DNA from: an uncultured Planctomycetota bacterium | Lineage (GTDB): Bacteria > Planctomycetota > Phycisphaerae > SM23-33 | NCBI GenBank assembly: GCA_903892515.1 | Contig: CAITIS010000057.1 | Span: forward strand, 175,627-239,626 | DNA: 64,000 nt | Direction of reading: 5' to 3' | In this document: positions 1,853-28,921 of the stretch, in pieces | Layout: each line of letters opens with the position of its first letter | Position numbering within the stretch: position 1 is the stretch's first letter | Translations under genes and position numbers: made by a program | Notes under the pieces: model-generated | The model's database searches: none | The model's input: the letters and a program-made list of their open reading frames with translations, nothing else | Told to the model about the DNA's origin: nothing

Positions 1853-2189
1853 GATCTTCTCGCATTCACGGATTGCACCCGGGACCCAAGGTGAACATCG
1901 GCCCGCCAAGGCAGGCGGTTGAGTTGCGCCGGTAGTGGTCGGCCTGATTTTCCGAGTGCGGGGATTTCCGAGGGCTGCTTAAGGGGCGTCGCGCACTGGT
2001 CGATAGCTAGCACGTCGGAATTAGGGTTGCGAGCCAAGGCGGTGCGCCGATGGTTCGCGGTTGTGCATGGTATTATCTGGGCGTGTCGGGCAAGGCCAGC
2101 ACTGGCCTTGGCGGCGCGCGTCGTTTCTGCCTGCAGGGCCGTCCCGGCCCATGTCTGGGCCTGTACTTTCCCTCCAATCGAGGAACACG
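1853..2189. other. Divergent intergenic region with inverted repeat before the chemotaxis operon
   Basis: This is the shared upstream region of the CBS gene (leftward) and the chemotaxis operon (rightward). A TATTAT hexamer at 2071-2076 could be a -10 element, but I see no convincing -35 partner. A perfect inverted repeat follows at 2091-2110. No coding potential is evident; the frames that cross it look like chance readings. Confidence 0.45.
2091..2110. promoter_or_regulatory. Inverted repeat upstream of the chemotaxis operon
   Basis: The arms CAAGGCCAG and CTGGCCTTG are perfectly complementary and separated by two bases, about 80 bases before the first chemotaxis gene. It could be an operator or a transcript hairpin. 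It does not match the dispersed palindrome families found elsewhere in the window. Confidence 0.4.
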
Positions 2190-2630
2190 ATGATGGAAAT
2201 CCGCGCATTGGTCGTAGACGACTCCGCCATCATGCGAAAGCTGGTGATGCGGTCGCTGGTGGAGAGCAAGATGGCGCTGTTCCTGTTCACCGAGGCCAAG
2301 GACGGGCAAGACGCGGTGTCCCAGTTCGACGTCGAGAACACGGACATGATCTTCGTGGACTGGAACATGCCCAACATGACGGGCATCGAGATGGTGCATG
2401 AGATCCGCGCCCGCCAGAAGCGGCACGTGCCGATCGTGATGATCACCACCGAAAGCACCATGGCCAGGGTTGAAGAGGCGCTGGCCGCCGGCGGTGTCGA
2501 TTCGTATGTCATCAAACCTTTTACCCCCGACGTGGTGCGGCAGAAGGTCGAGCCGCTGCTGGACAAGATGGCCGAGGCCAAGAAGGCCGGCGGAAGCTTC
2601 TTCAGCAAGCTGGCGGGAAAGTTGTCTTAA
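2190..2630 (+). CDS. CheY-like single-domain response regulator
   Basis: This 146-residue protein is a stand-alone receiver domain. The acidic pair is D10-D11, the phosphoacceptor is D57 in a VDWNMP loop, and the conserved lysine sits in a IKPF segment, so it looks phosphorylatable. A short Lys/Gly/Phe-rich tail of about 20 residues follows the receiver. It heads the chemotaxis operon and is therefore a candidate CheY that carries the CheA signal to the flagellar switch. A second CheY-like protein is encoded at 7440, so the division of labour is unknown. The start is the first of two adjacent ATGs with AGGA five bases upstream; the frame is open for 43 more codons upstream without a good start site. 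Confidence 0.9.
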   Translation: MMEIRALVVDDSAIMRKLVMRSLVESKMALFLFTEAKDGQDAVSQFDVENTDMIFVDWNMPNMTGIEMVHEIRARQKRHVPIVMITTESTMARVEEALAAGGVDSYVIKPFTPDVVRQKVEPLLDKMAEAKKAGGSFFSKLAGKLS

Positions 2631-2665
2631 CCCGACCCAACGTTCTCCAACAAGGAATTGCGAGT

Positions 2666-3175
2666 ATGGAAACGGCGGTACAAACAGAAAAGGGGAGTCT
2701 CTTAATGCATAGCGATTGCGTTCCAGAGGCGGTCATTTCGGTCTTTGCGGCCACATGTGGCACGGCGGTAGCTCCCGACCCGTCATCGGCGGATGAAGCG
2801 TTCGCCGACAGCACCGTCATGGCCGTCATCTCGCTGGTTGGCGAAGTGGAGTGGACGTTGTTCCTGGACTTGCCCGCCCCCAGCGCCTGCCTGCTGGCGG
2901 CCAAATTTGCCGGCTTTGAGATTCCCTTCGACAGCGCCGACATGGGCGACGCCATTGGCGAACTGGCCAACATCCTGGCCGGTGACATCAAGGCCCGCCT
3001 GGATAGCCGCGGCGTTCGCGCCGACCTGTCCCTGCCCAGCGTGCTGCGCGGCGAACACGTGAACCTTGTGCTGCAAAAGGGCCTGCCACGCAATAAATGG
3101 CTGTTCGCCTGCCCGGCCGGCAAGATCCGCGCCGGCATCGTGGCCGGCCGACAGGTGCTCGGCGCAAAGGGCTAG
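2666..3175 (+). CDS. cheX: CheX/CheC-family chemotaxis phosphatase candidate (first copy)
   Basis: The protein of 169 residues resembles CheX, the family that dephosphorylates CheY-P. The diagnostic helix with the E-x-x-N catalytic pair is visible as GDAIGELANILAGDI in the middle of the protein. Two small hydrophobic beta segments flank it, as expected for the CheC/FliY/CheX fold. It lies between a CheY-like gene and cheA. An alternative ATG at 2705 has GGGGAG seven bases upstream and may be the real start; the ATG at 2666 has a weaker AGGA at longer spacing. A second CheX-like gene is at 7816. Since cheZ is absent, these are the best phosphatase candidates. Confidence 0.75.
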   Translation: METAVQTEKGSLLMHSDCVPEAVISVFAATCGTAVAPDPSSADEAFADSTVMAVISLVGEVEWTLFLDLPAPSACLLAAKFAGFEIPFDSADMGDAIGELANILAGDIKARLDSRGVRADLSLPSVLRGEHVNLVLQKGLPRNKWLFACPAGKIRAGIVAGRQVLGAKG

Positions 3176-3211
3176 CAGCAATACCGCTGCCTGGCCACGG
3201 AGTCAGAGTCT

Positions 3212-5860
3212 ATGAGCGACATGCAGAAGAATCTCGACCTGCTGGCGGACCTCAGTTCGCGGCTGATCGGCCTGGACGTGGCCGACAAGCCGGCGATCAT
3301 TGCCGCCGGCGCCGATCTGGAGGCACTGAAAGCCTCTTGCGCAACCGTCGCGCCGGCCTGTGCGTACCTGAAGCTGGCCTTGGACACTCTTCAGGCGGCG
3401 TATCAGGAGGAACTGGCCCATCCGCATCCGGCCATGCTGGTGGCGGCCCGGGCGATGACGCTGGCTCTTGGCCATGTCCGCGCCGGCACCGAGCGAATTC
3501 CCGCCCCGGACCACGCCGAACTCGACGCCTTGGCCACGGCGGCCAGGCAATGCCGGGTCGATGCCAAACCAGCCAAGTCGCTGGACCTGCGAACGATCCT
3601 GAATGGCTTGGCGGCGCGATTCATGATTATCAGCTCCGATGACGCCCAGGGCCTGTCGGGCTTTCACGGCGAACTGGTGAAGTTGTGCTGCCAGGCCACA
3701 GGCGACGCGCAGGTGGCCGCGGCTTTGGCCCAGGCTGCGGGGGCGTTGGTCGGCGTTGTGACTCAGACGGCCACCTCGGCCGATGACGCGATCGCCTCGG
3801 CATCGGCCCACCTCGAATCGGCCATGCAGGCTGCGGAATCCGAGCCGGTGCAAGAGGCCGGCGAGGCGGAGTCTGCGGAGGCTTCGCCACTCAACGATGC
3901 AGAGATCGAGCCGCCGCTGGCATCGGCCGAACCACTTGCGGCCGCCCCTTGCGAACCGGCGGCCCCAAAGGTTGATGCGGCCAGCGTTGTCGCCTCCAGC
4001 CAGCCCGCGGAACCGCCGGCAAACAGCGCTGGCAAAGCGATTGCCGCCGTGGTCAGCACCCAAGCCAGGATTCTGCCCGCCGACGCGGACACGGAGTTGA
4101 TCAAGGAATACATGACCGAGTCGTTGGAGCACATCGCCGCCGGCGAGGTCGCGCTGCTGTCGCTGGAGAAAGACCCTGCCCAGGCCGAGCCGATCAACGT
4201 CATCTTCCGCGCATTCCACACTATCAAGGGCACCAGCGGTTTCATGGGGCTGGAGGACATCCAGCGGCTGGCCCACGTGGCCGAGAGCCTGCTCGATCGC
4301 GCCCGCACGGGCGAGATTCAGGTGGTGGGCGTCCACGCCGACCTGTCGCTGCGGGCCTGCGACATGCTGCGAAGCATGATCCAGGGGCTTGAAGGCTTGA
4401 AGCCCGGCGACCCGATCACGATTCCCGAGGGCCTGGCTGAGTTGACGGGGCAGTTGAAAGACCCCACAACCGCTGCACCGCAAGCGCCTGACCGGCTGAG
4501 ACTGGGCGACATCCTGGTGGCCCAGGGCAAGGTCGAGCGGACCGCGGTAGAAGAGACGGTGCAGCAGCAGGGCTCGGCGCTGCTGGGCGAGGCCCTGGTC
4601 CGCGACGGCAAGGCCGGGGCTGCCGACGTGGTCAAGGCGCTGCGGACGCAGAAAGAGGCCTCCGGCCAGCCGGCGGGCGAATCGGCCATCCGCGTGAACA
4701 CCCAGCGGCTTGACCAGGTCATAGACACCATGGGCGAGTTAGTGATCGCGCACGCCATGGTCGCGCAAGACCCGATGTTGCGCAGCCGCAGCCAGGAATA
4801 TGCCCAACTGGCGCGGAACATCGCCCATGCCAGCAAGATCATTCGCGAGTTGCAGGACCTGAGCATGTCGCTGCGGATGGTGCCGCTCAAGGCCACCTTC
4901 CAGAAAATGGCCCGGTTGGTGCGCGACGTGGCACGCAAGTCCGGCAAGCAGGTCGAACTTGTCACCGAGGGCGAGGACACCGAGATCGACCGCAACATGG
5001 TGGACATGCTCAACGACCCTCTCGTCCACATGATTCGCAACGCCGTCGATCACGGCGTTGAGGCGCCCGAGGTCCGCCAGCAGGGCGGCAAGAACCCCAC
5101 CGGCACCGTTACGATCCGGGCCTACCACTCGGCCGGCAGCGTCGTCATCGAGCTGCGCGACGACGGCAAGGGACTCGACCGCGAGAAGCTGCTGAAGAAG
5201 GCGCGCGAGCGCGGCCTGGTGGCCGACGGCTCGGAACTTAGCGATCGCGAGGTCTTTGAACTGATCTTCGCGCCGGGCTTTTCGACGGCAGAGGTGGTCA
5301 GTGACGTCTCAGGCCGGGGCGTGGGCATGGACGTGGTGCGGAAGAATGTGCAGGCCCTGCGCGGGCAGGTGGACATTGCCTCGACGCTGGGGGCCGGTTC
5401 GCTGTTCACGGTGCGGCTGCCGCTGACGATGGCGATCATCGACGCGATGGTCGTGCACGTTTCCCGCGAGCGATACCTGCTGCCCATCGTCTCGGTGGAG
5501 CAGAGTTTCCGCCCCAAGGCCGGGGCCATGTCCACGGTGGTGGGCAAGGGCGAGATGGTGAGGTTGCGCAACGAACTGCTGCCGGTCCTGCGGCTGCACA
5601 AGCTCTTTGGGCTTACCGGCGCGGTGGAAGACGCTTCGGCGGGGCTCATGATCGTCGTGCAGGCGTCCGGCGGCCGGTGCGCCATACTGGTCGATGAACT
5701 GCTGGGCCAACAGCAGGTGGTGATCAAGTCGCTGGGGCGTTCGTTGGCCAACGTGCCGGGCGTGGCCGGAGCGGCCATCCTGGGCGACGGCAGGGTGGGA
5801 TTGATTCTCGAACCGGCGGCGTTGACATCCGCCGGCCGGTCGGATGTACAGGCGGCGTAG
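3212..5860 (+). CDS. cheA: Chemotaxis histidine kinase CheA with long N-terminal extension
   Basis: This 882-residue kinase is longer than the usual 650-750. Residues 1-190 form a helical region I do not recognise, followed by an Ala/Pro/Glu-rich linker to about 290. The HPt domain follows, with phospho-accepting H336 in AFHTIKGTSGFMGL. Residues 430-480 carry two repeats beginning RLGDILVAQGK and LLGEALVRDGK, resembling the MshEN/GspE N-terminal module. They sit where the CheY-binding P2 domain normally lies. The dimerisation helices (from about 495), the HATPase domain with N-box NAVDHG at N610 and the GVGMDVV G-box, and a C-terminal CheW-like domain (about 745-870) complete the kinase. No cheW gene is in the window. 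Confidence 0.95.
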   Translation: MSDMQKNLDLLADLSSRLIGLDVADKPAIIAAGADLEALKASCATVAPACAYLKLALDTLQAAYQEELAHPHPAMLVAARAMTLALGHVRAGTERIPAPDHAELDALATAARQCRVDAKPAKSLDLRTILNGLAARFMIISSDDAQGLSGFHGELVKLCCQATGDAQVAAALAQAAGALVGVVTQTATSADDAIASASAHLESAMQAAESEPVQEAGEAESAEASPLNDAEIEPPLASAEPLAAAPCEPAAPKVDAASVVASSQPAEPPANSAGKAIAAVVSTQARILPADADTELIKEYMTESLEHIAAGEVALLSLEKDPAQAEPINVIFRAFHTIKGTSGFMGLEDIQRLAHVAESLLDRARTGEIQVVGVHADLSLRACDMLRSMIQGLEGLKPGDPITIPEGLAELTGQLKDPTTAAPQAPDRLRLGDILVAQGKVERTAVEETVQQQGSALLGEALVRDGKAGAADVVKALRTQKEASGQPAGESAIRVNTQRLDQVIDTMGELVIAHAMVAQDPMLRSRSQEYAQLARNIAHASKIIRELQDLSMSLRMVPLKATFQKMARLVRDVARKSGKQVELVTEGEDTEIDRNMVDMLNDPLVHMIRNAVDHGVEAPEVRQQGGKNPTGTVTIRAYHSAGSVVIELRDDGKGLDREKLLKKARERGLVADGSELSDREVFELIFAPGFSTAEVVSDVSGRGVGMDVVRKNVQALRGQVDIASTLGAGSLFTVRLPLTMAIIDAMVVHVSRERYLLPIVSVEQSFRPKAGAMSTVVGKGEMVRLRNELLPVLRLHKLFGLTGAVEDASAGLMIVVQASGGRCAILVDELLGQQQVVIKSLGRSLANVPGVAGAAILGDGRVGLILEPAALTSAGRSDVQAA

Positions 5861-5971
5861 CGGCTCTGTGTGCGAACGTAGTTGGGCATTGATGGGGCAG
5901 GCTTCGTGCCTGGGCTGCACAGTCTGAAAGGCTGTGCCACCTGACGCCCATGCCACGAGATGGAGGAACGC

Positions 5972-6874
5972 GTGTTCCGTTCAACGCGATCGAGTGAAGA
6001 AAACGTCGCACTGCTGGCCAAGTCGCCGTCGCAACGCATCGACGAGAGCGACGTTCTCGGCCCGCAGCTCAGCGACGCGATGTTTGAAGAGATCAGCACG
6101 CTGGTCAAGAGCATCTGCGGCATCAACCTGCACGAGGGCAAGAAGCAACTGGTCAAAGCCCGGCTCAACAAGCGGCTGCGGGCCACCAACCTGCCCACGT
6201 ACGAGGCCTATCTGGACCATGTTCGCTCTGACGTCAACGGCGACGAGTTGACGGTCATGCTGGACTCGCTCTCGACCAACCTGACGCAGTTCTTCCGCGA
6301 GCCCAAGCACTTTGAGCACCTTCGCGGCACCGTGCTGCCCGAGGTCGTGCGCCGGAGGAGCCAGGAGCGGCAGATCCGCATCTGGTCGGCAGGTTGTTCG
6401 TCGGGCGAAGAGCCATATTCCATCGCAATCGTGTTGCGCGAGCACCTGGGCAAGAGCGACTGGAACGCGGCCGTGCTGGCGACGGACCTGTCCACGCGCA
6501 TGCTGCACCGGGCCAAGCAGGGCGTGTACGAGTCAATGCGTCTGCGCGACGTGCCCGCCGGGCTGCTGTCCAAGCACTTCCAGCTCATCGAGGCCCGGCC
6601 CGCGCGGCGGTACCAGGTGGCGCCGGAGGTGCGGCAGATGGTGCACTTTGCGCGGCTCAACCTGATGGAGCGTTGGCCGATGCACGGGCCGTTTGACGCC
6701 ATCTTCTGCCGCAACGTGATGATCTACTTCGACAAGCCCACGCAGGAGCGGCTGGTGCAGCGGTTCTGGGAGATTCTGGCCCCGGGCGGCACGCTGTTTT
6801 TGGGGCATTCGGAGAGCCTGGCCGGCGTGAAGCATCGTTTTCACTACATTCAACCGACGGTGTACAACAAATGA
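5972..6874 (+). CDS. cheR: Chemotaxis receptor methyltransferase CheR
   Basis: CheR uses S-adenosylmethionine to methylate glutamates on chemoreceptors during adaptation. The 300-residue product has the N-terminal helical domain (about 40-100) and the Rossmann methyltransferase domain. Its motifs include NLTQFFREPKHFEHL, SAGCSSGEEPYSIA (SAM site) and IFCRNVMIYFD, all typical of CheR. The GTG at 5972 has GGAGG five bases upstream and is preferred; an in-frame ATG at 5960 lies inside that ribosome-binding segment. It overlaps cheD by four bases. The region 5861-5959 before it is mostly palindromic repeat remnant, so it may rely on transcription from cheA. Confidence 0.95.
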   Translation: MFRSTRSSEENVALLAKSPSQRIDESDVLGPQLSDAMFEEISTLVKSICGINLHEGKKQLVKARLNKRLRATNLPTYEAYLDHVRSDVNGDELTVMLDSLSTNLTQFFREPKHFEHLRGTVLPEVVRRRSQERQIRIWSAGCSSGEEPYSIAIVLREHLGKSDWNAAVLATDLSTRMLHRAKQGVYESMRLRDVPAGLLSKHFQLIEARPARRYQVAPEVRQMVHFARLNLMERWPMHGPFDAIFCRNVMIYFDKPTQERLVQRFWEILAPGGTLFLGHSESLAGVKHRFHYIQPTVYNK

Positions 6875-7398
6875 GTGTACTGTGCCAACATTCCGATCAG
6901 GCGGGCGCCAAGGTGGTCGTCGGCGTGGCGGACATGAAAGTGTCGGATCGCCGCGGCGACGTGCTGGTCACGCACGCACTGGGCAGTTGCCTGGGCGTGG
7001 CGGTGTATGACCCCACGGCGCAGGTCGGCGGGCTGCTGCACGTCATGATGCCATCCTCCGAAGCCAATCCGGAGAAGGCCGCCGCCAATCCGTACATGTT
7101 TGTGGATACCGGCGTGCCCGCGTTCTTCCGCGCCCTCTATGCAGCCGGCGGCATGAAGGGACGCCTGCAGGTCCGGGTGGCCGGCGGGGCGGCCTCGCAC
7201 AGCGGCAGCGCGGGTGGGGGCGAGGACTACTTCGCCATCGGCAAACGCAACTTCGTGATGCTGCGGAAGATCTTCTGGAAAAACGGCATCTTGATCCGCG
7301 GCGAGGACGTCGGAGGCAGCCAGCCCAGAACGATGTACCTGGAAATCGGCACCGGGCGGGTGTGGCTGCATAGTGGCGGGATCGAAAAAGAACTTTAG
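6871..7398 (+). CDS. cheD: Chemoreceptor glutamine deamidase CheD
   Basis: CheD deamidates selected receptor glutamines and in several bacteria also stimulates CheC-type phosphatases. This 175-residue protein shows the catalytic cysteine in THALGSCLGVAVYDP, the histidine in GGLLHVMMP, and the SHSGS/IGKRN region of the family. It overlaps the end of cheR by ATGA, indicating translational coupling. Its presence beside two CheX-like genes is consistent with a CheC/CheD-type adaptation branch. Confidence 0.95.
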   Translation: MSVLCQHSDQAGAKVVVGVADMKVSDRRGDVLVTHALGSCLGVAVYDPTAQVGGLLHVMMPSSEANPEKAAANPYMFVDTGVPAFFRALYAAGGMKGRLQVRVAGGAASHSGSAGGGEDYFAIGKRNFVMLRKIFWKNGILIRGEDVGGSQPRTMYLEIGTGRVWLHSGGIEKEL

Positions 7399-7439
7399 AC
7401 GCTGCCGGGCCCGAGCCTGAGCGAGCGAGAGGTGAGAAA

Positions 7440-7815
7440 ATGGCCCTGAACGTATTGGTTGTGGATGATTCGGCGGTGGCGCGAAGCATGATGATCCGGA
7501 CGCTGCGGATGTCAGGCCTGCCGCTGGGCGAGGTTTTCCAGGCTGGCAACGGCCAGGAAGGCCTGGCGGCGCTGGAACAAAACTGGGTCGATCTGGTGCT
7601 GGTGGATATCAACATGCCCATCATGGACGGCGAACAGATGCTCAGCGCCGTCCGCAACAATCCGCTCTGGAAGGATCTGCCCGTGATCGTGGTCTCCACC
7701 GAGGGCAGCCAGACTCGCATCGAGCGGCTGCGATCCGAAGGCGCCAGCTTCGTGCATAAGCCGTTTACGCCCGAAATCGTTAGTTCCATTGTGCTTGAAC
7801 TGACAGGAGTGGCCC

Positions 7816-7826
<11 letters not shown>
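7440..7826 (+). CDS. CheY-like single-domain response regulator (second copy)
   Basis: A 128-residue stand-alone receiver with acidic pair D9-D10, phosphoacceptor D56 in VDINMP and the lysine in VHKPFTP. All residues for phosphorylation are present. Its last eleven bases overlap the start of the following CheX-like gene, so the two are likely translationally coupled. That pairing suggests the regulator may be the substrate of the phosphatase. Either this protein or the one at 2190 is the main switch-binding CheY; sequence alone does not decide. Confidence 0.9.
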
Positions 7827-9410
<1,584 letters not shown>

Positions 9411-9541
9411 CGCTGGCCGCGCCGGAGGAACGGGCCGCCGATAGCGACGCTAACCACAAAGGCACAAAGAAGCGCCGCCACAAAGGGCACAAAGAACAGG
9501 CGAAGACTTCGAACCGGTTTCATACCCGGTTTGCCTCGTGG

Positions 9542-9791: not shown

Positions 9792-10041
9792 GCTGTTGCG
9801 GCCAGATCAATGTCTTCTCGCGCGGTTTCACGCCCGAGGGCGGGCGTGCCACGGGTATGAAATCAGTTCTCACATTGGCTTCATGTCCTTCGTGGCTTTT
9901 CGCATTCTCGGCCTTTCTCTGTGCCTCCGTGGCAAAAGCTGTTGCCTTGTTCCGCGCCCCCGTTTTGTTTTGGCGTTTTCGTCATTGCGTGCCACAATGT
10001 CGCCTGGAGTGACGGCTGACAGATCGGCCAGGAGGCGCCTC

Positions 10042-11841
10042 ATGACGGAGCGGCTGTACACAATACATCAGGTGGCACGGATGCTCGGCGCCGACACCCG
10101 CGAAGTGGCCCAGTGGATGCAGAAATCCTGGCTGCCGTTTCGCCGGCTGCCGGAAGGCACGCTGAGAATTTCCGAGACCAACCTCATCGAATTCCTCAAA
10201 GGCCAGGGCATCGACATCCGCGATGTGCTGGGCCCCAATGCGCCGCAAACCGGCGATCTTGTGGACACCCCCGCGCCAACCACGCCGGAGCGCCCATCCG
10301 AGCGGCCGATGGCGCCGGCCCGGCCGGAGTTGGTGGCACAGGCGGGAATCGGGAATCGGGAATCGGGAAGCCGGAATCCGGAAGTCGGAATCGGGAGTCG
10401 GGAATCGGGAAGCTGGAAATCGGAAGCCGGAAGCCGGAATCTGGAATCCGGGGTGCAGGGTCGGGCAACGACCGTGACACCGTCTGAGGCCGCGGCGCCC
10501 GTCTTGGCCATCGAAGCGAAAGATACGATCGAGGATTTGGAGGCGGCGGAACTCCGCGCCGAGGACGAGCTGGCCGAGTTGAAGAATGAATCCCGAGTGA
10601 CGGAAGAATCCCCAGCGCCGGCCGGCGAAATCCAGGCCGCACGCGTCGGGTCGGAAACATCTGGGCAGACCGCCCCGACGCCCGGCGACGCCGCGGCGCA
10701 ACTGGCCCAGGCCATCTTCCGTGAAGCCCTGGCGCGAAACGCTGAAGAGATCCACCTCGATGCCGACGGATCGGGGCTGAATCTGCGCATGCGCATTGAC
10801 GGCGTGCTGCAAGGCCGCGGCGCGCTTCAGGGCCGACTGGATGCTGCCGTGGCTCCGCAGCTTTTGGCACACCTGAAGTTTCTGGCCGGAGTGGACGTTT
10901 CATCCCGTGGCTTGCAGCGGGGGCGATTCTCCAGCCTGCTGGATGGCTCGGCCCAGGAGTTCGAACTCATCGCTTGCCCGGTCCGTCACGGCGAACGGCT
11001 GACGCTGCACGTGCTGGACAGCCAACGTGGCCTGATGAGCTTGGCCGACCTTGGCTTGGAGAGCGCCGACGAGCGACGGCTTCGCGGCCTGCTGCGGACG
11101 GCGGGGGCGATGATCCTGCTGGTCGGGCCGCCGCGGAGCGGCAAGAGCACGACGCTGCGGGCGATGGTGGCCGACCGGGCCGATCCGTCGCGCCTGGTGG
11201 CGCTGCTGGAGGCGGGCCCAAGTGCATTCGTGCCCGATGTTGCCCAGGCCACGGTCGATGCGGCGGCGGGTTTTGGCATGGCTTCGGCCGTGCAAGCCTT
11301 CGCCGCCCAGGACGCGGACATGATCGCTGCTTGCGACGTGCCCGATGCCGCCACTTGCGCCGAACTGCTCAGGAGCGCCCAGGCCGGTGCGACGGTGCTG
11401 GCAGCGCTGAATGCCCCCGACTGCGTGGCGGGCCTGGGGCGGTTGTGGGAAGTCGGTCTGGAGCGCTGGGCGACGGCGGCGAGCCTCTCGGCCATCATCA
11501 CGCAGCGGACGCTCCGGCGGCTTTGTCCGGAGTGCCGGCGGCCGGTCGTGGCGGCAGAGATCCCGCCGCGCTGGGAGGCGATGCTCGAAGGCCGCGGCCC
11601 GATCTTCACGGCCTTAGGGTGCGAGCGGTGCGGCAAGAGCGGCTACTCTGGCCGGACGGGCGTATTCTCGATCCTCCATGTAGATTCTGCGTTGGGGGCG
11701 ATGATCCGCCACGGCGCCGACGCGCAGGCCCTGGCGGACGCCGCGACGAGCTTTGAGTCGCTCGTCCAGGCCGGCCTAAAGAAGGTGCTGGCCGGCGAGA
11801 CCTCGCTGGAGGAGTTGGATCGCGTGCTGCCGATGGCGTAG
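10042..11841 (+). CDS. HTH-fused, catalytically degenerate PilB/GspE-type ATPase
   Basis: The 599-residue product begins with a MerR/excisionase-like helix-turn-helix (about 4-58). A low-complexity linker follows, of which about 101-138 are encoded by a tandem DNA repeat. From about 225 it follows the type II/IV secretion ATPase fold. Walker A is intact (GPPRSGKST, K368). The Walker B/GEIRD region is altered to DADMIAACDVPD (424-435), and the Asp and His boxes are not recognisable. The zinc-binding CxxC pairs remain (C495/C498, C527/C530). It is probably a structural or regulatory relative rather than an active motor. AGGAGG lies just upstream of the ATG; the frame is open 82 codons further upstream through repeats. 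It stands between cheB and the hook operon. Confidence 0.8.
   Translation: MTERLYTIHQVARMLGADTREVAQWMQKSWLPFRRLPEGTLRISETNLIEFLKGQGIDIRDVLGPNAPQTGDLVDTPAPTTPERPSERPMAPARPELVAQAGIGNRESGSRNPEVGIGSRESGSWKSEAGSRNLESGVQGRATTVTPSEAAAPVLAIEAKDTIEDLEAAELRAEDELAELKNESRVTEESPAPAGEIQAARVGSETSGQTAPTPGDAAAQLAQAIFREALARNAEEIHLDADGSGLNLRMRIDGVLQGRGALQGRLDAAVAPQLLAHLKFLAGVDVSSRGLQRGRFSSLLDGSAQEFELIACPVRHGERLTLHVLDSQRGLMSLADLGLESADERRLRGLLRTAGAMILLVGPPRSGKSTTLRAMVADRADPSRLVALLEAGPSAFVPDVAQATVDAAAGFGMASAVQAFAAQDADMIAACDVPDAATCAELLRSAQAGATVLAALNAPDCVAGLGRLWEVGLERWATAASLSAIITQRTLRRLCPECRRPVVAAEIPPRWEAMLEGRGPIFTALGCERCGKSGYSGRTGVFSILHVDSALGAMIRHGADAQALADAATSFESLVQAGLKKVLAGETSLEELDRVLPMA
10343..10455. repeat. Tandem GGGAATC-type repeat inside a coding sequence
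   Basis: About ten degenerate copies of a unit of roughly 10 bases (CGGGAATCGG and variants) lie inside the HTH/PilB-like gene and encode a Gly/Ser/Arg/Glu-rich linker. The same repeat type occurs between genes at 26278-26410. Confidence 0.85.
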
Positions 11842-12037: not shown

Positions 12038-12226
12038 CCACGCTGATCAAATCTGCTGATGGAATCGCGTTCGATGCGGAAGAATCTTCCGCTTGAGCAG
12101 GAAACTCCTTCCGGTTTGCCACCGCCTCGCAAGCTGCACGGTGCGGGCGACGTCCACACTTCTGCTGCATGCAACACGCTGGCCGGCATGACGTTGCCGC
12201 TGCGGGCGCGTCGTTCATTCCGCCTT

Positions 12227-12242
12227 TGGCACGATCATTGCA
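12227..12242 (+). promoter_or_regulatory. Sigma-54 (-24/-12) promoter for the fliK hook operon
   Basis: TGGCACG (12227-12233), four bases, then TTGCA (12238-12242). Every position of the TGGCACG-N4-TTGCA consensus matches and the GG-to-GC spacing is ten bases. The predicted start of transcription is about 12252, only some six bases before the fliK ATG. Two sigma-54 activators are encoded in the window. Confidence 0.85.
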
Positions 12243-12257
12243 TTAAGACATGCCGGA

Positions 12258-13988
12258 ATGATGCCGACATGCGTCAGTTCGACGACCCTGCCCAAGGCGG
12301 CCGGAGCTGCGCCGACTTCGACCTCGCTGGTCGATGCGGTCGCGCCCCAAGCCAACGCTGGCGCGGGTGGCGACTTCCAGGCCGTGCTGAACGCGCTGGC
12401 CGGCGGGGCGAAGGCTGCGACAACTCCCGCTGACACAGCCGCTGAATCGGCAGGCAACGCGGCGACCCCGGCAACCGCGACCGGCGAAACCGTCGCCCCA
12501 GCAACCTCGGCGGCACTGGCTGCGGCAGTGGCCGCGTATGCAACCGGCGCTTCGGAAGCCCAGGACGCCGCCGCGGAAAAGCCCGCCGACGTGGCCCATC
12601 TGGCGGCCCTTGCGTCCGCCCGCCAGCCGGAAGACGCAACACCGGACGCGCCGGCGACGAGCAAGCCTGACAAGAACGCCCCTCCAGCCAAGCCGACGAA
12701 CGGCCGAGCTGCCGCACGCCGCGCGGCGAAAGCTTCGAACCCTGAGGCTCAAGCCCAAGCCCAAACGAACGAAATGCCGGACGATGCCCGCGTCGTCATG
12801 GCCGCTGGCACGCCTGCGTCCGTGGTTGTGGAAGTGGCCACGACCGCCTCAAGCGACGCGAGCACAGCCCCGGCCTCGGGCCAGTCAAACAGCAAACAGA
12901 CGCAGACCGTTTCGCCGCTCTCCGGCGGATCGCTTCACCTGCCAGCCGTGCCGACCGCAAAGGCCGACGTGTCGCAGCGAGCAGGATCAACGCAATCGCA
13001 GCCCGCGCAAAGTGACGCCACTGTCGCGCCCGCTTCGGCGGCCGTCAGCGCAGCGGGGCAGAACTCCGCCGCGCCAGTCGAGCCGGAAAACAAACAACAG
13101 ACTGCCGCGCGAAGCGATGCCGCAACCGCCCGCACTGAGCAGCCCTCGGCCGCTGCGGCGACTGAGCAGCGTCCACCTACAAGTACGCAGCCATCGGTCA
13201 CCGCCTCGGGCGCGCAGCCATTCGCTGCCGCGGTTGCCAATAGCGTCCGGCCCGAAGCCTCAGCGCAGCCGGTTGACGCCGACGCGCAGGCGATGAATAC
13301 CGAAACCCCAGCCGTGATGGGCGCAGTCAAGAGTGGCCACGCCACCAATCCTGATGCAGTTCAAGGGACGCGTGGGGCATCGAGCGAGCGTCGCAGCGGC
13401 CGGGCGACCGCGATTGACGCGCTACTGGCCGATGGCCGCGGGCGTCTCGCCGAAGATGCCGGGCCGGCCGAAAAGCTGGCCGCCGCCGATGCGCCGCAAA
13501 CGCCGGCTCGAACCGACCGCCAAGCCTTGGTGGACCAGATCGTCACCGGCCTGCGGGCCAGCGCCATCCAGCGAGACAAGTCCATCACCGTGCAGTTGCA
13601 TCCGGTGGAACTGGGCTCGGTTCGCCTGACGGTGCGGGACGACGGCGGCGTGCTGCGAGGCCACCTGGAAGTGGCCAACCGCTCCACGCTGGACGACGTG
13701 CGAGCCGAGACCCCGGCGCTGCTGAACCGGCTTAACGAGAGCGGCGTTCCGCTGCACCGGATCGACGTGGTGGTGAGTGCGGGCCAGTCTTCCAGCACGG
13801 CCAGCCATACCCCCAATGACTCGCGCGGCGCCTTGTCTCAGCAGCCACAGGAACAGGGCCAGCGTCAGGCCATGAACCAGAGCGCCTCCGGCGCGCTGGG
13901 CCTGCGGGCCGCCGAGCCGGTCTCGGTTCCAAGTGCCAGTGAAACCAGCGTCGCCGGTCCAGCCGGCGGCCTTAACGTGTGGATGTAA
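12258..13988 (+). CDS. fliK: Flagellar hook-length control protein FliK
   Basis: FliK is a secreted molecular ruler that stops hook growth at the right length and switches the export gate through FlhB. The 576-residue product has the usual two-part design. An Ala/Thr/Pro/Gln-rich disordered N-terminal region runs to about 420. A folded C-terminal domain (about 430-510) carries the conserved ITVQLHPVELGSVRLTVR segment and a HLEVANRSTLDDVRAETPALLNRL helix. It opens the hook operon and lies directly behind a sigma-54 promoter. The start is one of two adjacent ATGs (12258 or 12261); neither has a convincing Shine-Dalgarno element, so the mRNA may be nearly leaderless. Confidence 0.88.
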   Translation: MMPTCVSSTTLPKAAGAAPTSTSLVDAVAPQANAGAGGDFQAVLNALAGGAKAATTPADTAAESAGNAATPATATGETVAPATSAALAAAVAAYATGASEAQDAAAEKPADVAHLAALASARQPEDATPDAPATSKPDKNAPPAKPTNGRAAARRAAKASNPEAQAQAQTNEMPDDARVVMAAGTPASVVVEVATTASSDASTAPASGQSNSKQTQTVSPLSGGSLHLPAVPTAKADVSQRAGSTQSQPAQSDATVAPASAAVSAAGQNSAAPVEPENKQQTAARSDAATARTEQPSAAAATEQRPPTSTQPSVTASGAQPFAAAVANSVRPEASAQPVDADAQAMNTETPAVMGAVKSGHATNPDAVQGTRGASSERRSGRATAIDALLADGRGRLAEDAGPAEKLAAADAPQTPARTDRQALVDQIVTGLRASAIQRDKSITVQLHPVELGSVRLTVRDDGGVLRGHLEVANRSTLDDVRAETPALLNRLNESGVPLHRIDVVVSAGQSSSTASHTPNDSRGALSQQPQEQGQRQAMNQSASGALGLRAAEPVSVPSASETSVAGPAGGLNVWM

Positions 13989-27587: not shown

Positions 27588-27823
27588 GGAAATCCACTAG
27601 GTCTTGCCGAAATTCTGCGTACGGCCATTGCTAAATTGGCCTGTCGTCGAGCTTTGTGCTTGGCGCGAGAAACGCGGAGTGCGGTAGCGACTATCGATTC
27701 GGTAGTGGAGATGGCCCCTGTCCCAGCAGCAAGGATGCTGCCGGGGCGGCGGGTGAGTAGCCAGTAGCTTGGCTAGCCGAATTGAGGTGTTGCTTCCGTC
27801 CAGTCTGAATGCTGGAGGCAAGG

Positions 27824-28921
27824 ATGCCTGTTACGTTATCTGCTGCCACGTCTGTCGATACCGACGCACCGCCAACGCAATCCTATTCACCAGATGCGCA
27901 GGCCAACCCTGCCCGGTTTTTTGCCGGCGCGGCGGAACTGTCGGCCGGTCTGGTAGGGCAGAGCCCTGCCATGCGGCAGACCCTCGATCTTATTCGCGTG
28001 CTGGCGCAAAACCAGTGCAGCTCAGTGCTGATCCTGGGCGAGACGGGCACGGGCAAGGAATTGGCGGCCCGGGCCGTTCATGCCTGGCAGGGCAAGCCTG
28101 CGGAAAGCTTCGTCGCCATCAATTGCGCGACCATGACCGCCGGCCTGTTTGAGAGCGAACTGTTTGGCCACGTGAAGGGCGCCTTCACCGGCGCCGATCG
28201 CGACAAAGTGGGCTTGCTGGAATTGGCCCAGGGCGGCAGCATCCTGCTGGATGAGATCAGCGAAATGTCCGTGGAGTTGCAGGCCAAACTGCTGCGGGTC
28301 TTGCAGGAGCGGGAATTCCGGCGCGTGGGCGGGACTAAGAGCGTGCGTTTCGACGCCACGGTCATCGCTTCGAGCAATCGCGACCTGGAGACCGAAGTGG
28401 CGCAAGGCCGCTTCCGCCGCGACTTGTATTATCGCCTGACTGTGCTGCCCATCCAGATGCCGCCGCTGCGTCACCCCGACCGTAGTTCAGACATTCCGCT
28501 GCTGGCGGAGTACTTCCTGGCCACCTCGCCGCTGCCCAAACGCGTCGGCATCACCGGCCTGTGCGAATCGGCCATGGAAAAGCTGCTCGACCACGACTGG
28601 CCGGGCAATGTGCGCGAGCTCAAGAACGTCATCGAGCGGGCCATCCTGCTGGAGAGCGGCCCGGAGATCTCCGAACGCAGTGTCGTCCTGTGCCAGTGCG
28701 AAGAAATCAGTCACGACCTCCCGGGCAAACCCGCCTCCGAAGGCAAGCGGGAGTTTTCGCTGGAAGCGGCTGAACGCGAGTTCATCCTGCGGGCCCTGAA
28801 CGAGACGGGCTGGCAGCGGACGCACGCCGCCACCTTGCTGGGCATCAGCCGGGCGACCCTGCACGCCAAGCTCAAGCGCTACGAGATGGCCTCTCCCCTC
28901 AGCCAGGCGCAGGCGTCGTAG
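27824..28921 (+). CDS. Sigma-54-dependent activator without receiver domain
   Basis: The 365-residue protein consists of a short N-terminal part (about 45 residues), an AAA+ domain and a Fis-type helix-turn-helix. Walker A is GETGTGKE (72-79), the sigma-54 contact loop GAFTGA is at 119-124 and Walker B is GGSILLDEIS. The C-terminal HTH reads HAATLLGISRATLHAKLKRYEM. It has no receiver or sensory domain, like FlrA/FlgR-type flagellar activators in some species. It is a candidate master regulator for the sigma-54 promoters at 12227, 26553 and 29271. The ATG at 27824 has GGAGG upstream and is preferred over the ATG at 27809. Confidence 0.9.
   Translation: MPVTLSAATSVDTDAPPTQSYSPDAQANPARFFAGAAELSAGLVGQSPAMRQTLDLIRVLAQNQCSSVLILGETGTGKELAARAVHAWQGKPAESFVAINCATMTAGLFESELFGHVKGAFTGADRDKVGLLELAQGGSILLDEISEMSVELQAKLLRVLQEREFRRVGGTKSVRFDATVIASSNRDLETEVAQGRFRRDLYYRLTVLPIQMPPLRHPDRSSDIPLLAEYFLATSPLPKRVGITGLCESAMEKLLDHDWPGNVRELKNVIERAILLESGPEISERSVVLCQCEEISHDLPGKPASEGKREFSLEAAEREFILRALNETGWQRTHAATLLGISRATLHAKLKRYEMASPLSQAQAS

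Follow-up and report, generated by a model that had tools for sequence, protein, structure and literature searches.

Between its chemotaxis genes and its hook genes, an uncultured Planctomycetota bacterium codes for what appears to be a pilus or secretion motor ATPase with degraded catalytic boxes, fused to a helix-turn-helix (HTH) domain. What is such a protein, and what might it do? The first-pass annotation of the window (the whole stretch of 64,000 nucleotides analysed here) had proposed a DNA-binding protein built from a PilB/GspE fold with lost catalysis, reused as a regulator or scaffold. Our analysis yields a family of proteins that indeed give the impression of a motor put to new use in regulation or as a scaffold, and below we lay out its architecture, residue losses, distribution and genomic contexts.

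Domain architecture of the protein

The gene and the recognizable elements of its product are as follows (window coordinates):

10030..10035, forward strand: Shine-Dalgarno AGGAGG, 6 bases before the ATG at 10042 (sequence)
10042..11841, forward strand: HTH_17-T2SSE pseudo-ATPase gene, 599 amino acids (open reading frame and translation, Pfam, 18 other carrier genomes)
10042..10221, forward strand: winged-helix HTH_17/BldC-like domain, residues 1-60 (AlphaFold pLDDT ~83-93, Foldseek, invariant W25)
10222..10689, forward strand: linker of low confidence, residues 61-216 (pLDDT <50 for 66-166 and 182-214)
10343..10448: (CGGGAAT)n microsatellite, in frame in the linker (tandem repeat)
10690..11838, forward strand: degenerate PilB/GspE (T2SSE) core, residues 217-599 (Pfam, Foldseek)
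11125..11151, forward strand: Walker A GPPRSGKST, residues 362-370, K368 retained (sequence, alignment)
11203..11229, forward strand: degenerate Asp-box region LLEAGPSAF, residues 388-396 (sequence, alignment)
11329..11346, forward strand: degenerate Walker B ACDVPD (canonical GEIRD), residues 430-435 (sequence, alignment)
11401..11421, forward strand: degenerate His-box region AALNAPD, residues 454-460 (sequence, alignment)
11524..11535, forward strand: zinc pair 1 CPEC, C495/C498 (sequence, alignment)
11620..11631, forward strand: zinc pair 2 CERC, C527/C530 (sequence, alignment)

Pfam assigns residues 220-594 to T2SSE (E 1.1e-54) and residues 5-55 to HTH_17 (E 4.9e-4). The latter match, at 20.7 bits, lies below the Pfam cut-off of 27 bits; the orthologues from G022, G012, G009 and G027 exceed it with 29.9-33.5 bits and, together with the winged-helix model described below, bear out the N-terminal HTH of the first-pass annotation. 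The window protein has no Pfam match to PF00158, the sigma-54 interaction AAA domain. The earlier readings of an intact Walker A with K368, two intact CxxC zinc pairs, a Walker B degraded from GEIRD, and Asp and His boxes beyond recognition all hold for the residues listed above.

Stretches resembling the translated (CGGGAAT)n linker repeat are also present elsewhere in the window genome. Separately, copies of GTGGCACAGCCGCCCTCGGCTGTGG are dispersed at window positions 9538, 9768 and 62444, of which two closely precede the pseudo-ATPase gene.

Family-wide loss of catalytic residues

We aligned 15 copies of the protein with 35 canonical T2SSE paralogues drawn from their own and from related genomes; each of the catalytic residues is kept in 32-35 of these 35. 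In the window copy, the Asp box is missing its Asp and second Glu, Walker B its Gly and Arg, and the His box its His, Thr and Asn; both Arg ahead of QDPD and one Arg finger are also gone, and the catalytic Glu is now Asp. These losses extend across the family: the His-box His, the Asp-box Asp, the Arg before QDxD (LRQ Arg) and the GH His are each found in 0/14 copies, the Walker B Gly in 1/14, and the catalytic Glu of Walker B, where the window has CDVPD, in 6/14. In PilB, the Asp-box Glu coordinates magnesium and the His-box His touches the gamma-phosphate (PMC5424180). The Walker A Lys survives in 2/15 copies, namely that of the window and that of G032, where it derives from a shifted PSGSPKAT motif; the complete GxxxxGK[ST] is found in the window copy only and not in its orthologues. 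The alignment to PilB/GspE thus confirmed the missing residues. As these boxes are also gone from 14 further copies that share the N-terminus, misalignment or chance is rejected as the source of the losses, and close homologues with canonical boxes were looked for and not found.

Other positions have persisted or have been newly fixed. First, the zinc cysteines are present in 12/12 copies with a complete domain. Second, both Asp of QDxD are retained in 14/14 copies, and the His of the N2 domain and the Arg of RxRxDG in 15/15. Third, there are family-specific gains, W476 (13/14) and R556 (13/13), at positions that are Tyr/Phe or variable in canonical proteins. The cores of the G002 and G029 copies are eroded, with the zinc domain gone; stages of erosion are preserved within a single bacterial family, from the complete P-loop of the window copy to the zinc-domain loss of G002. 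Taken together, the family-wide residue loss and the persisting zinc and fold positions mark the window protein, judged by its sequence, as a conserved pseudo-ATPase with a PilB/GspE fold. An ATPase fold without catalytic residues joined to a DNA-binding-type domain, as originally proposed, is strongly supported across the whole orthologue family.

A functional ATPase with its catalytic residues shifted elsewhere might be read from the GxxxxGKST of the window copy and the Asp at its catalytic Glu position; however, the P-loop Lys has given way to Arg, Ala, Pro or Thr in relatives, and the family-specific residues offer no conserved substitute for the His or Asp box, making this reading extremely improbable. 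Nucleotide binding by the window copy may persist, since it has kept a complete P-loop unlike nearly all its relatives, while hydrolysis is unlikely.

Phyletic distribution

We sampled the family-level clade that includes the window genome (G000) with 35 genomes, all Planctomycetota MAGs. Profile searches found the HTH_17-T2SSE pseudo-ATPase architecture in 19 of them: G000, G022, G012, G027, G011, G028, G008, G034, G032, G009, G025, G016, G005, G002, G029, G010, G033 (with two copies), G018 and G020. Carriers were sought with profile A1, built from the nine initial copies, and then with A4, which covers only the HTH; at E 1e-70 the profile search undercounts them, and the HTH-only search added G025, G016, G005 and G002. 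The G005 copy has an N run in its frame, and the genes of G034 and G032 are cut by contig ends. In a 392-genome sample of the phylum (391 other genomes), the HTH subfamily was not found outside the clade at E 1e-14, nor did any A1 match outside it extend into the HTH at E 1e-100. A contig scan returned no matches with the single window protein as query; with profile A3 it returned five family copies, all from Planctomycetota/Planctomycetales MAGs, and one HTH-only match from a Chloroflexi MAG. As far as sampled, the HTH_17 pseudo-ATPase appears restricted to one Planctomycetota clade, and we found no description of such an HTH-pilus-motor fusion in the open-access literature searched.

In a tree with the 35 canonical T2SSE proteins, the 15 pseudo-ATPase copies form one clade with a branch support of 100/100. 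A quick tree of 19 copies and the catalytic HTH fusions discussed below again placed the pseudo-ATPases on one side (SH-aLRT 100). The branches within the clade are long, with an identity of 30-40% between genera.

Predicted structure and potential for DNA binding

Structure prediction, which had been suggested as a check on the annotation, recovers a PilB/GspE core fold with a BldC-like winged helix. The AlphaFold model, with nine sequences, has a mean pLDDT of 72 and a pTM of 0.48, the HTH and core being confident and the linker low. In Foldseek searches, the core matched Thermus PilF (5oiu; E 1e-35, TM-score 0.88 by target length) as well as other PilB/GspE structures, and the HTH model found DNA-bound BldC as its best match (6ama; E 5e-3, probability 1.00), followed by MerR-type and excisionase proteins.

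BldC forms head-to-tail multimers on direct repeats, contacting DNA through Trp31 and Arg48, reading bases with Arg30 and docking its wing with His46 and Arg47 (PMC5859096). In our alignment, the equivalents of Trp31 and Arg48 are conserved in the family, as an invariant W25 and as R42 in most copies. Besides the pTM of the full-length model, three observations on the HTH are counted against a regulator: G010 and G029 have Gln in place of the wing Arg R42; Arg30, His46 and Arg47 of BldC have no conserved counterpart; and the net charge of the HTH ranges from -2 to +6 across copies. DNA binding by the HTH is plausible, as its model resembles DNA-bound BldC and the W25/R42 pair is kept, albeit not the other contacts.

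Selection on the HTH, linker and core

Comparison of the G008 and G028 genes gave a dN/dS of ~0.17 in the HTH, rising to 0.40 in the core and 0.57 in the linker; in the same two genomes, catalytic T2SSE pairs have values of 0.12-0.17, FlgE 0.18 and FliK 0.41. By these ratios, the core is relaxed yet constrained, and constraint is strongest on the HTH. The frames are open in every copy free of contig-end cuts and N runs. Since the frames are open and dN/dS is well below 1, the interpretation of the gene as a pseudogene fails.

A milder version of this idea, namely a decaying duplicate without an important role that is kept by weak selection, would account for the long branches, the low identity between genera and the erosion of the core up to the zinc-domain loss in G002 and G029. 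Nevertheless, the open frames, dN/dS values that stay well under 1 throughout the protein (most markedly in the HTH), and residues that were gained and then fixed in the clade all speak against it, and we consider it improbable.

Gene neighborhoods and the link to flagella

In the window, the pseudo-ATPase gene is flanked by the following:

2067..9410, forward strand: chemotaxis genes for a receiver protein, cheX, cheA, cheR, cheD, cheY and cheB (Pfam)
12258..13988, forward strand: fliK, which opens the hook/rod run (Pfam)

The order after fliK is flgD, flgE, a gene for a PilZ-domain protein, flgF/G-like, flgA, flgH, flgI and flgK (Pfam). In seven genomes (G000, G022, G028, G008, G034, G025 and G027) the pseudo-ATPase gene adjoins the che/fliK-flg region or lies inside it, and in an eighth, G032, it is near this region by contig ends. 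The details vary: fliK is directly downstream in G022, G028 and G034 (in the last, the 3' half of the gene is on the fliK contig); two ORFs intervene before fliK in G008, an arrangement with which the contig ends of G032 are consistent; in G025 the gene sits between cheRDYB and flgL/flgK; and in G027 it is a few kb past the flgL end of the flg cluster. Elsewhere it adjoins a transketolase gene (G012 and G011) or is divergent to comEC (G010 and G033, contig 61), and these unrelated neighbors are counted against a regulator. Flagellar genes were detected in 15/19 carriers as opposed to 7/16 non-carriers (Fisher p 0.04, uncorrected for relatedness), a weak association; in the remaining four of the 19 carriers none were detected. 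Thus, the annotated placement between chemotaxis and hook genes stands for the window, and proximity to flagellar genes for a subset of the family, but it is not universal.

The comEC-divergent copies are at L081:2-2023 and L080:10572-13049. In the genus of G008, a divergent ORF of ~169 codons starts ~47 bp from the pseudo-ATPase gene (L026, L027, L022, L083 and L084); its product is TM_HPP by Pfam in both copies checked (L027 and L022).

The main rival to a multimerizing core bearing DNA-binding domains is a motor accessory: the degenerate core would join or dock onto catalytic PilB/GspE rings and modulate or inhibit pilus or secretion motors, with the HTH as a docking module or a leftover. 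The overall fold and zinc site kept in the core would suit this role, as would the position of two copies next to comEC, a DNA-uptake gene, the loss of the HTH wing Arg in G010 and G029, and the several catalytic T2SSE genes per genome (the window genome has ~10 T2SSE paralogues). We consider it rather unlikely, given that no pilus assembly genes adjoin among the neighbors checked, that the HTH is the most conserved part, and that the Arg fingers and Asp-box residues of PilB subunit interfaces (PMC5424180) are mostly lost.

The fliK promoter and its palindromes

The recurrent position of the gene ahead of fliK directs attention to three elements:

12078..12112, no strand: pair of GGAA-N5-TTCC palindromes at 12078-12090 and at 12100-12112 (conservation ahead of fliK)
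12227..12241, forward strand: perfect sigma-54 promoter, TGGCACGATCATTGC, upstream of fliK (sequence)
27809..28921, forward strand: sigma-54 activator (AAA and Fis-type HTH), candidate user of the palindromes (Pfam)

A sigma-54-type site, defined by at most one mismatch to TGGCAC-N5-TTGC, is present at 18/18 fliK loci with readable upstream DNA (the window and 17 relatives), and 16/18 have a perfect GGAA-N5-TTCC palindrome 124-137 bases upstream. A dedicated hook-operon regulator binding these palindromes might be suspected from the genomes in which the pseudo-ATPase gene is directly upstream of fliK with the palindromes in between. However, palindromes near -125 also occur in the non-carriers G017, G006, G030, G021 and G015, and the divergent neighbor of fliK in G009, G011, G012 and G027 is an orthologue of the sigma-54 activator. 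On both counts, the palindromes are most likely sites of that activator and not of the pseudo-ATPase, and we regard a dedicated hook-operon regulator as very improbable. As flagellated non-carriers have the palindromes too, their candidacy as an operator of the pseudo-ATPase is unsupported, and they offer no support for it as a regulator of fliK.

Functional implications

The reading that we favor, with moderate confidence, is that of a non-catalytic motor core that multimerizes a winged helix, acting as a regulator or scaffold. The PilB/GspE core would be kept as a folded, zinc-stapled and probably self-associating module that does no ATP-driven work, with a winged helix of the BldC/excisionase type attached to it through a flexible linker. 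By gathering several HTHs, the core could confer avid DNA binding and thereby regulate or organize genes; in flagellated lineages, motility and chemotaxis genes would be natural candidate targets. In the window copy, nucleotide binding without efficient hydrolysis could act as an input signal. A precedent is found in Myxococcus xanthus PilB, which signals as an ATPase-deficient variant (PMC5544727): there a motor fold signals without hydrolysis, yet that protein is a working pilus motor with no HTH reported.

If the protein binds DNA, it would represent a secretion or pilus motor turned gene regulator, that is, the conversion of a nanomachine part into a transcription factor, and a concrete candidate for a link through which pili and flagella of uncultured Planctomycetota could communicate. 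More speculatively, and in our estimation unlikely, it could define a class of transcription factors in which the retired core both multimerizes and senses, through pairing with live PilB/GspE proteins or nucleotide binding, and so relays pilus or secretion activity to the genes of motility and chemotaxis.

Relationship to known systems

The PilB/GspE ATPases (PilF 5oiu, EpsE 1p9r and PilB 5tsg) share with the pseudo-ATPase the N2 and core fold and the tetra-cysteine zinc site, at ~24-29% identity in the structural matches. The pseudo-ATPase differs from them in lacking the Asp box, the His box, the Arg preceding QDxD and, in most copies, the P-loop Lys, in having an HTH and no other N-terminal domain by Pfam, and in having no identified pilus neighbors. 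With BldC/MerR-like and excisionase winged helices it shares the topology, the recognition-helix Trp and, in most copies, the wing Arg; whereas BldC is a protein of 68 residues, the HTH here is fused to a large core, and Arg30 and His46/Arg47 are not conserved. By profile score, the closest other HTHs are those of HTH_17-receiver response regulators from genomes of the same family, which have a C-terminal CheY-like receiver and no T2SSE core.

A catalytically intact HTH_17-T2SSE fusion from five genomes combines these two Pfam families in an identical order and forms a separate clade; its window-genome copy has a full Walker A and GEIRD, and its HTH is only 18% identical to that of the window protein. 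With separate clades and dissimilar HTHs, descent of the pseudo-ATPase from this catalytic fusion of the window genome is unsupported. The intact fusion of the window genome is encoded at G000:C57:169882-171519 (L021:4883-6520), beside a gene for a BMC shell protein, and its homologues with the same architecture are found in G034, G015, G006 and G030.
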